Source of the DNA: Candidatus Poribacteria bacterium | GTDB taxonomy: Bacteria > Poribacteria > WGA-4E > WGA-3G | Direction: 5' to 3' | Length of the DNA: 45,872 bases | Assembly: GCA_012270795.1 (NCBI GenBank) | Contig: JAAXHO010000180.1 | Coordinates: forward strand, 1-45,872 | Shown here: in pieces, positions 11,860-16,029 of the stretch | How the letters are laid out: every line of letters starts with the position of its first letter | How positions within the stretch are numbered: position 1 is the stretch's first letter | The notes under the pieces: generated by a model | Database searches by the model: none | What the model was told of the DNA's origin: nothing | Seen by the model: the letters and a program-made list of their open reading frames with translations, nothing else | Made by a program: the position numbers and the translations under genes

Positions 11860-13749
11860 ATGGCATTTTTAAATCCTATTGCTTTCTACCTGTTAGGAAC
11901 TATCCCAATCGTTTTTGCGTTGCACTTTCTGAAGTTACGCAGACAACGGTACGTTGTGCCGAGTATACTACTCTGGCGCACAAGTACTGAAGATCAGAAG
12001 GCGAACATACCCTTTAAACGGCTTCGGAATCTGTTGTTACCTTTTCTGCAATGCTTGTTTCTCCTTCTCATCATTACCAGTGTTGCGCGGCCAGCATTGC
12101 GAATTCCAAGTATCGTCCATGGTAAGATCATCTATATCATTGACAATTCTGCCAGCATGCTATCAAGAGAGTTAGGAGAAACCAGGTTATCACTCGCCAA
12201 AAAAGAAGTACTGAAACAGATAAAACAGGTTTCTGCAAGTGGTGGTGGTGTCATGATAATGGCAACGCAGCCATCAAAGCATCATATTCATCAGGCATTT
12301 ACAACGGATAGCCAGAAGTTGCAAAAGGCAGTAGAGAACATCCCATCAACACATATCGGACATCAAACGACATCCGTTTTTGACCTTGCAGTTCAATATG
12401 TAGACACACCTCAAGATAAAATAGTTTTTGTTAGTGATTCTTTTGAGAATATGCGTGTCACATCAATTCCTATCAACAAAATTGCTATAGGAAGTAGCGT
12501 AGAGAACATTGGTATTGTCCAATTCAACGTAGAGCGAATTGCCGATCAATACACTGTCCTTGCAAGGATACAAAATTGGACTGAAACAGAAAGACAAGTA
12601 GACACACGATTAGAACTGGAAGGCAACAGACCGATTTCTGAAAAAACAGTGAAAATACCTGCTGGAGATGTGCAATCTGTATTGTATTCCATCAGTGCAG
12701 AAGGTTTAGAAGGAATTGCAATTAGTCTCCATCTCGTCGATGTCACGGACGACTTTGCTTTAGACAACAGCGTTTGGGCAATCCTCAAGCCAGCGAAACA
12801 ATTCCGTATACTACTTGTCAGTGACCAAAACCAACCGTTTTTGACACGACTATTGAATAGTGCTGGAGACTATATTGAACTGCAGTCAGTTTCTACTGCA
12901 GAATTTAATGCAGCTGCGGATAAGGATGTCGTAATTTTTAATGGTGAAATCCTTAAATCAAAGGATTTTTTTTTCAATCCTGGTAGAGAAACCGTTATTT
13001 TTGTCAACCCAAAAGGTGCGTTGCCAGTTCTGACAGAAACTGCTTTTGATGTTATTTCAACACCTGTTTCCGTTATTAAAGAGGATAAGACCCATCCTAT
13101 TATGCAAGGTATATCCTTTATGGGATTACGGATAAAGGAATCTGTTGAAAGAAAACTACCCACAGGGGGGAGTACCATTATTGAATCGGAAAAGGGACCG
13201 TTAATTTGGCTTGGAACAGAGGCGAGTAAACACTTCCTCGTTTTTGAATTTGACGCTTTCAATCCAGAAATATCTTCTTTTCCAATCACGATTCCAGATG
13301 TTGCCCTCTTTATGTATCAATACTTGGAATGGCTTGATTCCAGAACCGCAACAGTACAATCAATTTCATTACAGCAAACAGATGATGGGATGCGTTTTCG
13401 GACTGGAGAGAAACTAAAAATAGACCTATCCAATAGTGAAACAAGAAATATCCAAGTGAAAAAACCTGATGGGATTATGGTTGATTTAAATAACGATGTG
13501 TTTACAGAAGCAGATCAAATCGGGGTTTATTCTGTGTATGAAGACGAATTGCTTTTTGACCGATTTGCAGTGAATTTACTTGATCCATCGGAATCTGCGT
13601 TGACATCTACCAACTCAGAAAACAACGCACAAGAACCTGAAGAGAATATAAAAACGCTAAAACCTTTGATGCAGGAGATTTGGCAATGGGTAGCACTATT
13701 CGCTGTCGGTTTCCTCCTCTGTGAGTGGTGGTGCTATCACAGAAATTAA
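11860..13749 (+). CDS. BatA/VWA-domain membrane protein
   Basis: The 629-aa protein starts with a BatA N-terminal domain (FLNPIAFYLLGTIPIVFALH, then an RRQRYVVPSILLWR stretch), has a second membrane segment at about 58-77 and a von Willebrand A domain from about residue 88. The MIDAS motif DNSAS (DxSxS) is present at IIYIIDNSASML. A long beta-rich region follows and a C-terminal membrane helix (about 609-625) ends the protein. Proteins of this kind occur with MoxR ATPases and DUF58 proteins in envelope-stress clusters, none of which is visible next to it here. Its 3' end overlaps the convergent dockerin-thioredoxin gene by 54 bases. There is no strong ribosome binding site before the ATG at 11860. 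Confidence 0.82.
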   Translation: MAFLNPIAFYLLGTIPIVFALHFLKLRRQRYVVPSILLWRTSTEDQKANIPFKRLRNLLLPFLQCLFLLLIITSVARPALRIPSIVHGKIIYIIDNSASMLSRELGETRLSLAKKEVLKQIKQVSASGGGVMIMATQPSKHHIHQAFTTDSQKLQKAVENIPSTHIGHQTTSVFDLAVQYVDTPQDKIVFVSDSFENMRVTSIPINKIAIGSSVENIGIVQFNVERIADQYTVLARIQNWTETERQVDTRLELEGNRPISEKTVKIPAGDVQSVLYSISAEGLEGIAISLHLVDVTDDFALDNSVWAILKPAKQFRILLVSDQNQPFLTRLLNSAGDYIELQSVSTAEFNAAADKDVVIFNGEILKSKDFFFNPGRETVIFVNPKGALPVLTETAFDVISTPVSVIKEDKTHPIMQGISFMGLRIKESVERKLPTGGSTIIESEKGPLIWLGTEASKHFLVFEFDAFNPEISSFPITIPDVALFMYQYLEWLDSRTATVQSISLQQTDDGMRFRTGEKLKIDLSNSETRNIQVKKPDGIMVDLNNDVFTEADQIGVYSVYEDELLFDRFAVNLLDPSESALTSTNSENNAQEPEENIKTLKPLMQEIWQWVALFAVGFLLCEWWCYHRN

Positions 13750-14325
13750 CGCCGCAAGCACACGGTTTACCAACGTCTCCTTCGGCATTGCACCGAAAAA
13801 CCTGGATACCTCTTTTCCTTCATAAAATAGGATGTATGTCGGTGTACCGCGAATGCCGTATTCTGTTGTTTTTACTAAATTTTGGTTCACTTCTAATTTT
13901 GCAACAGTGAAAACGTCACGATATTCTAAGGCAATTTCAGAAACCACCGGTTTCATCAATAAACAGTAAATTCAGTAAACCGAGTGGAATTCAACTAAAA
14001 TCGGTAGCGATGCATTATTAACGGTAGTGTCAAAAGTTTTGTCCGTTATTTCAAGTGGAACACCAGAATACTTACCAAAATGGCTTGCTATCAATGTAAG
14101 GTCAAGTATGTTGACATCACCATCACCGTTGACATCAGGATTTGAGGACTGATTTTCAGTAGGTGTTTCCCCAAAATGGGATGCAACGAAAACTAAATCA
14201 AGGATATTAATGATTCCATCTGTATTCACATCAGAGGCAAGGAGACTATCAAATTCTGTTTCTTCTTGAGCAGAGACCATTGAAAACAGACATATAGAAA
14301 GGAGTAAACATAAGCATTTTTTCAT
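13696..14325 (-). CDS. Secreted dockerin-thioredoxin protein, probable selenoprotein (in-frame TGA at 13974-13972)
   Basis: Read through a single TGA, this gene gives a 209-aa protein: signal peptide (MKKCLCLLLSICLFSMVSA), two dockerin-type calcium repeats (DVNTDGIINILDLVFVASHFG-type, about residues 32-85) and a thioredoxin domain (about 97-205). Around the TGA the protein reads ILVEFHSVY-U-IYC-LLMKPVVSEIA, which aligns residue for residue with E. coli thioredoxin [20 protein letters not shown], so U118 sits at the nucleophilic Cys32 and C121 at Cys35. Later family features (TVAKLEVNQN, YGIRGTPTYILF with the cis-Pro) are intact, so the part after TGA is under selection. The start is ATG at 14325 with AAGG before it; ATG at 14340 overlaps the E2 stop but has no ribosome binding site. 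The alternative is a nonsense mutation of a Cys codon; see findings. The TGA would otherwise split it into frames 13972-14340 and 13696-13959. Confidence 0.8.
13940..13974 (-). promoter_or_regulatory. Candidate bacterial SECIS hairpin after the in-frame TGA
   Basis: On the minus strand, GAAACC (13954-13949), a GGT loop (13948-13946) and GGTTTC (13945-13940) form a perfect six-pair hairpin. The loop begins 23 bases after the TGA, inside the 16-37-base window known for bacterial SECIS elements, and its first two bases are G, as required for SelB binding. No folding program was run. Confidence 0.6.
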
Positions 14326-14336
14326 AAACATAACCT

Positions 14337-15704
14337 TCATATAAGCAATAGATAGGGGTTTTGAATATATTGAGAGACGTTTTGAAGGAACTGGGCAGCA
14401 GGTGCACCGTCAACGATACGATGATCAAACGTCAAACTGAGTGCTAACATACTTCTTATTGCGATTTCATCGTTGTGAACGACAGGTTTCTTTGCTAACC
14501 GACCAACACCGAGGATTGCACATTCAGGCGGATTGATAATCGGTGTGAACGCCTCAATACCAAAATTACCAAGATTTGTTAAAGTAAAGGTGCCACCTTG
14601 CAATTCACTAGGTGTGAGTTGATTGTTTCGTGCTTTGTCTGCTAAGGTTTTTAACTGTTCGGAGATAGCACGCAAACCGATCTTATCAGCATTTCGAATC
14701 ACAGGCACAACAAGACCGTCTTCCAACGCAACTGCAACCCCGATGTTGATGTCAACTAACATTTCAATCCCTCTGTCAGTGAGTGTTGCATTTAGTCGTG
14801 GATGTTCCCGTAGTGCTGCCGCAACAATCTTAACAAGCAGATCGGTATAGGTGAGACTCACCTCGCTTCTTTGCAAATCTTCGTTGAACAATGTTCGTAA
14901 TTCAACGAGTGCCGTCGCATCAACTTCGGTGTGCAATGTGACACTGGCATTCATCTGTAGACTCATTGTCATACGTTCTGCGATTATATTCCGCATACTA
15001 CTTAGTTCAATAATGTCTGATGCGACAGATTCAGGACGGAATACATGTGCGGGTATCTCATCTGTGGCTTGCAGCACATCATCGCGGACAATCCTGCCAT
15101 CGGGACCGGAACCTGCAATTGTAGCGAGGTCAAGACTAAATTCCCTTGCCAACCTTCGCGCAAGTGGAGATGCTTTAAGGCGGGTTGATTCAGTTGTCGT
15201 CGGTTCTCTGGTCTCAACATAGCGGTGTACATCGCTTTCAAGGATACGACCCCCAGGACCAGATGCTTTCACTTGTGCTAAGTCAATTGAGAGTTTTTCT
15301 GCTAATTGTTGCGCGGATGGAGATGCTTTAATGGGCACGGTCGTTTGCGTGGACGGTTTCGACTGTGTTCTGGTTGCTTCAGAAGGTGTTGTTTTATGCT
15401 GCTCAGGTGCATCTATCTCCTGTGCTTGTGCTGCAGTATCTGCTACCACACGTTCAACTTTCTCTCCCGGTGCTGCGATAACGGCTAACAACGCATTGAC
15501 AGGGACATCGCTGCCTTCTTCTGGAAGTATCTGTGCAATAATGCCATTAGTGGGAGATTCCTGCTCATGAACAACTTTGTCCGTTTCAATTTCCAATAGA
15601 GGTTGTCCTTCGGTTACGGAATCACCTTCCTTAACAAGCCATTTACCGATTTTCCCTTTTGTCATTGTTTGATCCATCTGTAGCATTCTTAGCTCAACAG
15701 CCAT
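14337..15704 (-). CDS. Dihydrolipoamide acyltransferase (E2 of a 2-oxoacid dehydrogenase complex)
   Basis: E2 transfers the acyl group from lipoamide to CoA at the core of pyruvate, branched-chain or acetoin dehydrogenase complexes. The 455-aa protein has an N-terminal lipoyl domain with the modified lysine in ETDKVVHE (K43), two peripheral-subunit-binding domains (SPSAQQLAEKLSID...GRILESDV and SPLARRLAREFSLD...GRIVRDDV) and the C-terminal catalytic domain with DHRIVDG. Two subunit-binding domains instead of the usual one is noteworthy. No E1 or E3 gene lies nearby, so it is an orphan here and its substrate is open. The start ATG at 15704 has GGAGA eight bases before it; it overlaps the small upstream gene. 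The stop overlaps the ATG at 14340 by four bases. Confidence 0.92.
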   Translation of the reverse strand: MAVELRMLQMDQTMTKGKIGKWLVKEGDSVTEGQPLLEIETDKVVHEQESPTNGIIAQILPEEGSDVPVNALLAVIAAPGEKVERVVADTAAQAQEIDAPEQHKTTPSEATRTQSKPSTQTTVPIKASPSAQQLAEKLSIDLAQVKASGPGGRILESDVHRYVETREPTTTESTRLKASPLARRLAREFSLDLATIAGSGPDGRIVRDDVLQATDEIPAHVFRPESVASDIIELSSMRNIIAERMTMSLQMNASVTLHTEVDATALVELRTLFNEDLQRSEVSLTYTDLLVKIVAAALREHPRLNATLTDRGIEMLVDINIGVAVALEDGLVVPVIRNADKIGLRAISEQLKTLADKARNNQLTPSELQGGTFTLTNLGNFGIEAFTPIINPPECAILGVGRLAKKPVVHNDEIAIRSMLALSLTFDHRIVDGAPAAQFLQNVSQYIQNPYLLLI

Positions 15705-16029
15705 CAACTTCTCCTATTTTCTGATGATGTCCATCATTTGGTTTTTCTATGAGTTGTAAGAGACGTTCTATGTTTTCATCTTTTTCCAGAATGAGGGCGA
15801 TTTTTTGGTATTGATCCCCCTTGAAAAATGCTTGAACAAAAGGACTAAAGGCAATCAACAACTGTGATCCTAAGAAGTTTAGGGGTTTGCCTGTTTCAAG
15901 AAATATGATAGCTGGCGCGGTTAGATTTCTACGCTTGATCCATAGTGCCAGTTTTTCTAACAAAGCGAGTTGTTCTTCCTCCGGTATATCTTCAAGCACA
16001 CTCGGTATTTCGTGGTTAGGATTATGCAT
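15694..16029 (-). CDS. Small conserved-looking hypothetical protein
   Basis: This 111-aa protein is acidic in its first 25 residues (PEEEQLALLEKLALWI) and has a central hydrophobic stretch (LNFLGSQLLIAFSPFVQAFF) that could lie in or against the membrane, then a helical tail. I do not recognise a family. It overlaps the E2 start by 11 bases, so the two are translationally coupled and it may serve the E2 complex. The start ATG at 16029 has TAGGTG seven bases upstream; GTG at 16038 is a less likely alternative. Confidence 0.6.
   Translation of the reverse strand: MHNPNHEIPSVLEDIPEEEQLALLEKLALWIKRRNLTAPAIIFLETGKPLNFLGSQLLIAFSPFVQAFFKGDQYQKIALILEKDENIERLLQLIEKPNDGHHQKIGEVDGC

Follow-up and report, generated by a model that had tools for sequence, protein, structure and literature searches.

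A gene on the minus strand (13696-14325) of a 45,872-nucleotide stretch of Candidatus Poribacteria DNA (GenBank assembly GCA_012270795.1, contig JAAXHO010000180.1; the whole stretch is referred to below as the window) very probably encodes an exported selenoprotein, as judged from its sequence and from those of its relatives. With a single in-frame TGA read as selenocysteine (Sec), the product has 209 residues and is composed of a probable signal peptide, a type I dockerin and a Sec-thioredoxin; UGA codon 118 would be decoded as Sec by SelB and Sec-tRNA(UCA), and the dockerin-Sec-thioredoxin would act outside the cytoplasm. Both the mode of decoding and the catalytic domain have precedents; what appears to be new is the exported architecture with a dockerin, together with the lineage.

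Gene structure and active site

An earlier reading of the window made from the sequence alone (the sequence-only reading) had taken two adjacent frames as one gene split by TGA, and the minus-strand frame from 14325 to 13696 is indeed open apart from a single TGA at codon 118 (13972-13974). The start is placed at the ATG at 14325 and not at 14340, because an orthologue (L085) has an in-frame TGA immediately 5' of the same Met; by inspection, GAAGG at 14334-14338 (minus strand), 8 bases 5' of this ATG, is a possible ribosome-binding site. Residues 1-19 (14269-14325), with a hydrophobic core and the sequence VSA before Q, look by inspection like a signal peptide in the translation and in the orthologues. 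They are followed by a Dockerin_1 domain at residues 31-81 (14083-14235; Pfam PF00404, 45.4 bits against a cut-off of 22.9) and a thioredoxin domain at residues 91-189 (13759-14055; PF00085, 70.2 bits against 23.5). The dockerin and the probable signal peptide are additions to what had been noticed before.

A phmmer alignment of residues 91-185 to Escherichia coli thioredoxin (1txx) was free of gaps, with codon 118 at the first active-site Cys and Cys121 (TGT, 13963-13965) at the second, so that the active-site motif reads UIYC. This agrees with the earlier claim that the stop falls on the nucleophilic Cys and that the resolving Cys is intact three residues on; the translated motifs on which that claim drew (FHSVY-U-IYC-LLMKPVVSEIA, FTVAKLEVNQN and YGIRGTPTY) are present as well. 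Thioredoxins made up the majority of the 60 best PDB sequence matches. The best of five AlphaFold2 models, computed with 16 sequences, had a mean predicted local distance difference test score (pLDDT) of 77.5 and a predicted template-modelling score of 0.59, the other four having mean pLDDT values from 71.6 to 46.7; block means were 77-95 across residues 91-200, and a Foldseek search with the model found E. coli thioredoxin 2trx with a TMt of 0.88. The domain therefore has the PF00085 match over cut-off, the Trx fold, the CxxC-type motif and the TPT (cis-Pro) motif of a thioredoxin. Its score with the TrxA equivalog model TIGR01068 was 67.6 bits, below the NCBIfam cut-off of 96.8, and no NCBIfam model attained its cut-off for this protein.

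Conservation of codon 118 and of the downstream reading frame

Orthologues, defined as best matches of >190 bits spanning both the dockerin and the thioredoxin, were sought in 59 genomes: that of the window (G000), 17 of the same genus, 17 more of the same family and 24 more distant ones. All 59 gave some match, and 34 of the 35 family members had an orthologue, the sole exception being G012 (95% complete); the best match in the 24 genomes outside the family was of about 80 bits at most. Codon 118 could be read directly in all 34 orthologues, at 30 loci (28 TGA, 2 TGT) and at four further ones (2 TGA, 2 TGC), which makes 30 TGA, 2 TGT and 2 TGC and no other residue, and Cys121 was retained in each. 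An in-frame TGA is thus aligned with the Cys of homologues, which is the pattern looked for in bacterial selenoproteins. The sequence-only reading had proposed to look in relatives for TGA or Cys at this codon, or else for further decay of the frame; TGA or Cys was what all 34 carried, and the frames were unbroken elsewhere, save for the TGT form of G011, in which an early TAA makes the product a few residues short.

In a tree of 32 of the 34 orthologues, from which the TGA-bearing ones of G018 and G027 were omitted, the four Cys forms fell into two separate pairs and the Sec/Cys label requires two changes, the direction of which is unpolarised since the root was placed at the midpoint only. 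Over the 72 codons 3' of the TGA, the ratio of nonsynonymous to synonymous substitution rates (dN/dS, Nei-Gojobori) was 0.17 against the nearest relative, and it ranged between 0.07 and 0.53 for pairs with dS of 0.05-0.9, the value of 0.53 coming from a single pair (L035/L036). These values, well below 1, indicate purifying selection on the part of the gene behind the TGA, which would be expected to approach 1 in a decayed tail.

A wider scan of one genome per species in 84,980 species, which locates loci through two conserved peptide patterns (and may therefore miss divergent orthologues) and may also lack records very close to the genome of the window, gave 84 loci, of which 80 were kept. 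Most of both domains was spanned by 24 of them and residues 68-193 by one more, and all these 25 are titled Poribacteria; the remaining 55, some of them from Poribacteria too, consisted of a dockerin match with a short extension at most (the longest, L155, covering residues 29-137). The nearest named orthologue, 90% identical, lies on a contig from a metagenome-assembled genome of Candidatus Poribacteria.

Selenocysteine machinery

The genome of the window contains a tRNA-Sec gene (78.5 bits against a cut-off of 47; anticodon tca according to ARAGORN) and, adjacent to it on contig C275, selB (352.9 bits against 242.25), both flanked by a predicted signal peptidase gene and lipA. The selD gene, found on contig C161 (L020:5213-6259, minus strand), carries an in-frame TGA of its own in a CAGU motif. 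With tRNA-Sec, SelB and SelD, the genome holds the components taken here as the mark of Sec decoding, and a large part of the machinery for which the sequence-only reading had proposed a search was thus found; the part that was not, selA, is dealt with below. SelA (TIGR00474) was over cut-off in 50 of the 59 genomes; of the 30 bearing the TGA form, 27 had it, including the nearest one, G013. SelB was over cut-off in 31 of the 34 genomes searched for it and in 14 of the 16 TGA-bearing ones among them, the two without it being 81% and 73% complete. The presence of Cys at codon 118 does not equate with loss of the machinery, since the Cys-form genomes G007, G011 and G019 possess both SelA and SelB.

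A conserved stem-loop downstream of the TGA

In the predicted fold of the window's own sequence, a stem-loop of 15 pairs (13925-13970, minus strand) resembling a selenocysteine insertion sequence (SECIS) starts at the second base after the TGA, and its apical hairpin (13940-13954) has 6 pairs and a GGU loop (13948-13946). The perfect hairpin already pointed out in the sequence-only reading, GAAACC-GGT-GGTTTC, is present as described, its first base being the 18th behind the TGA, with 23 bases from the TGA to the loop; both the 6-bp stem and the 23-nt distance lie within the geometry of bacterial SECIS elements (an upper stem of 4-16 bp and 16-37 nt from UGA to loop). At the other 27 TGA loci of the set described next, predicted folds had energies of -7.7 to -19.0 kcal/mol (the lowest from five lengths of at most 57 bases, without a shuffle control), with other shapes at several of them.

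Covariation was examined in an ungapped alignment of 28 TGA loci with 25 distinct rows. The apical hairpin was paired in 90% of the cells, versus 25-67% with a slid partner, and the complete stem-loop in 88.3% versus 34-56%, the 15-pair model being derived from one of the aligned sequences and hence favoured over its slid versions. Cells with double changes numbered 13 in the apical hairpin, versus 5.0 in shuffles, and 18 in the complete stem-loop, versus 7.3, neither figure being attained in any of 500 shuffles. Since the stem-loop sits in coding sequence, synonymous codons were also shuffled within columns: 148 of the 168 possible apical pairs were observed, against a mean of 141.0, a number reached by 9 of 5000 shuffles. 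With the same-genus loci alone, the observed number was 85 of 90 and the mean 81.9, and 301 of 20000 shuffles reached it. The aligned sequences being related, these are not independent events. The clearest covariation concerns the second base of a Lys/Arg/Ala codon, which pairs with the silent third position of a Val codon. At this site the 15 same-genus loci had AAA with GTT (8), AGA or AGG with GTC (3), GCA with GTG (1) and the mismatch AGA with GTG (3); among 13 loci of the related genus labelled g2, the same site was paired in 7 and unpaired in 6 (AAG or AAA with GTC). In the two TGT orthologues the apical hairpin is left with 3 pairs in one and 2 in the other, out of 6. Comparison across relatives thus supports the presence of a conserved downstream stem-loop with compensatory changes, which would aid Sec decoding. 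No SECIS-like family turned up when the window and the segment 13650-14400 were searched with Rfam, the matches being one tRNA at gathering level and five sub-threshold ones to unrelated families.

Observations that weigh against selenocysteine decoding

Some of the results do not favour the interpretation proposed here. The first of them is that selA was not found in the 95%-complete assembly of the window's genome, where PF03841 gave nothing and the sole sign of it with TIGR00474 was a trace at E 8.4e-4; the two other TGA-bearing genomes without SelA are 81% and 73% complete. In G013, selA lies in a stretch of 4.4 kb together with a predicted FGE-like gene and an ABC-transporter gene. When this stretch was compared with the genome of the window, no match was found inside selA, the sole long match (70%, 1.2 kb) beginning beyond it and the others being short repeats or weak. 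Because genes neighbouring selA are missing along with it, a gap in the assembly is the likelier cause of its absence than a deletion. SepSecS (PF05889), of the archaeal type of Sec synthesis, was considered as a substitute for SelA and rejected: its one partial match (20.7 bits, or 21.2 with frame neighbours, for a cut-off of 21.1) is probably a generic pyridoxal-phosphate enzyme, since the model also hits Bacillus subtilis, Synechococcus and two archaea among 14 controls.

The remaining observations of this kind concern the stem-loop. Its likeness to a bacterial SECIS, proposed in the sequence-only reading, holds for the geometry but not for the energy, since the 55-base fold of the window has -6.3 kcal/mol, above the limit of -7.5 kcal/mol or lower required by the bacterial SECIS model in the portion of PMC13188914 consulted. 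This fold is no better than those of dinucleotide shuffles (z -0.30; 70 of 200 equally good), and for this reason the stem-loop is singled out by the comparison across relatives and not by the single sequence. Two of the five covariation measures were also like those of shuffles, namely double-change pairs (322 and 328 of 500 as high) and additional types of pair (50 and 86 of 500). Only 4 of the 6 apical pairs are formed in 8 of the 28 TGA sequences, six from g2 with a TGT loop and two of the same genus with an AGT loop. The RNAalifold consensus is shallow (-2.7 kcal/mol). Codon resampling carried out sequence by sequence at the 28 loci gave p<=0.05 in 9 and p>0.3 in 6, with 0.16 for the window, and the TGT orthologue L038 still folds, at -10.4 kcal/mol, into a different shape.

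Proposed function and alternative explanations

In the mechanism that we propose, SelB with Sec-tRNA(UCA) would read the UGA at codon 118 as Sec, helped by the adjoining 3' stem-loop, and the mature protein, according to the sequence and the model, would carry its dockerin module ahead of a thioredoxin domain in which Sec118-x-x-Cys121 forms the redox pair. The probable signal peptide is the reason for placing its action outside the cytoplasm, the periplasm or the cell surface being the most likely destination. Sec improves the nucleophilicity of a thioredoxin active site. From the fold and the motif, the selenolate would be expected to attack extracytoplasmic proteins at disulfides or oxidised thiols, and Cys121 to release it, in the manner of thioredoxin. 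More tentatively, the dockerin would probably tether the protein to a cohesin-bearing protein of the same genome, which is possible given the 32 matches to Dockerin_1 and the 8 to cohesin that were found there. A broader picture, which we regard as conceivable although rather doubtful, is that of a modular extracellular Sec system in Poribacteria, in which interchangeable Sec-thioredoxin heads would be carried on dockerins, repeat stalks or lipoproteins, the dockerin form being plugged into sponge-facing cohesin surface proteins.

It can also be the case that the UGA serves as a selenium switch, with an exported 117-residue dockerin fragment having a role of its own at low selenium and the full enzyme being made when selenium is available. 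Some truncated product is expected from UGA-Sec genes in general, and here a complete dockerin module is encoded 5' of the UGA; but the fragment would end in a partial thioredoxin domain, its stability and usefulness are speculative, and we consider such a switch improbable. It would be compatible with Sec decoding and not opposed to it.

A reading of the UGA as something other than Sec, whether by reassignment throughout the genome or by leaky readthrough that inserts Trp or Cys, could find an argument in the missing selA, which leaves Sec synthesis in this genome incompletely evidenced. However, TGA is the ordinary stop of 12 of the 38 open reading frames of the window taken as main genes, and therefore it is not reassigned; all three TGA-bearing proteins seen in this genome have it at a redox-Cys position; and tRNA-Sec, selB and selD are present, with selA in 27 of the 30 genomes that have the TGA form. 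Such a reading is thus very unlikely. A scan of the window for further TGA-split genes gave three candidates, all lying to 99-100% within other open reading frames; the scan had strict settings (a single TGA for each stop-to-stop frame, with length limits), missed the codon-118 gene itself and is not exhaustive. Finally, a pseudogene in which a plain nonsense mutation struck the Cys codon by chance would account for a single in-frame stop splitting the frame into halves listed as separate open reading frames, but this explanation, judged the less likely one already in the sequence-only reading, can in practice be dismissed, given that the TGA is conserved across two genera (30 of 34 orthologues) and that the part behind it is under purifying selection.

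Relation to known selenoproteins and dockerin proteins

The active-site motif of thioredoxin type contains GP, and several Trx-fold selenoproteins are expected outside the cytoplasm. Thioredoxins with a UxxC motif are known bacterial selenoproteins, as described in the portions of PMC13188914, PMC9312934 and PMC2398784 that were available. The poribacterial protein shares with the bacterial Sec-thioredoxin (PF00085, UxxC; PMC13188914, same portion) the fold, the motif and the Sec at the catalytic position, but its thioredoxin domain is preceded by a type I dockerin and, before that, by a probable signal peptide, and the poribacterial motifs (UIYC, UPFC and others) are without GP and the TIGR01068 score is below cut-off. 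With the DsbA-like and DsbG-like selenoproteins and those similar to the TsoB rhodanese/DsbD fusion it has the Trx fold in common, whereas a dockerin is named in none of these entries in the same portions of the three papers. On the other hand, it resembles the type I dockerin proteins of cellulosome-like systems in its Dockerin_1 match over the Pfam cut-off and in the presence of cohesins in the same genome, and differs from them in that the partner of the dockerin is a thiol-redox domain and not a carbohydrate-active enzyme. In our searches of the open-licence PMC literature we found no report of selenoproteins or dockerins in Poribacteria, nor any paper on a dockerin-thioredoxin selenoprotein or on a dockerin combined with a thioredoxin domain.

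The selenoproteome would thereby gain both a lineage and a design, that is, Sec-thioredoxins made for export and seemingly for docking in an uncultured phylum of symbionts, the bacterium of the window being a symbiont of sponges. Such proteins are easily overlooked because standard gene callers cut the gene at the TGA, and the present sequences provide concrete peptides to be sought in sponge metaproteomes. According to the portion of PMC5649159 available, SelA and SelB co-occur in the majority of sponge-symbiont genome bins, for which proteins of this kind offer a possible biochemical reason. It also becomes a testable question whether dockerin-cohesin docking extends beyond polysaccharide breakdown in these bacteria.

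Further Sec-thioredoxins, dockerins and cohesins

A second likely selenoprotein is encoded on contig C168 of the same genome (L075:1324-2460, plus strand), with a signal-peptide-like start, a Trx-fold domain with a WUGWC motif (U encoded by TGA) and then TPR repeats; its best NCBIfam score, 71.8 bits, is with selenoprotein TsoB, far under the cut-off of 805. In g2, at least 14 of 15 genomes have another thioredoxin match with a TGA on the contig of the orthologue and about 1.6 kb or less from it. The three of these that were read (L182:743-2896, minus; L180:1058-2950, plus; L181:168-2009, minus) adjoin the orthologue and have frames of 614-718 residues; in their products, a start resembling a signal peptide precedes a dockerin, several repeats and, at the C terminus, a Sec-thioredoxin (UPFC). 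Elsewhere in g2, six short TGA-bearing matches were found, and the three that were read (L183:464-949, minus; L184:247-774, plus; L185:331-999, minus) are lipoprotein-like Sec-thioredoxins with WUGFC or WUGAC motifs, so called from an IGC lipobox recognised by inspection. Taken together, these predicted proteins suggest a set of extracytoplasmic Sec-thioredoxins.

Seven of the eight cohesin matches in the genome of the window were over cut-off. Five of the eight (on C33, C137, C168, C192 and C272) are followed by a dockerin match within about 105 bases, on the same strand and in an open frame of equal length, and it would seem from this arrangement that cohesin-dockerin proteins could chain to one another.

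Genomic neighbourhood

The upstream neighbour of the selenoprotein gene encodes a 2-oxoacid dehydrogenase E2 acyltransferase (14337-15707, minus strand), relatives of which flank the orthologue in all 17 same-genus loci, that of the window included; at the 13 g2 loci none was found. On the other side lies a convergent gene for a BatA/VWA protein (11860-13749, plus strand), with a relative near the orthologue in 23 of 30 loci. The role of the selenoprotein is not explained by either neighbour. The 3' ends of the selenoprotein and BatA/VWA genes overlap by 54 bases (13696-13749), and the two frames overlap in the relative L085 too.

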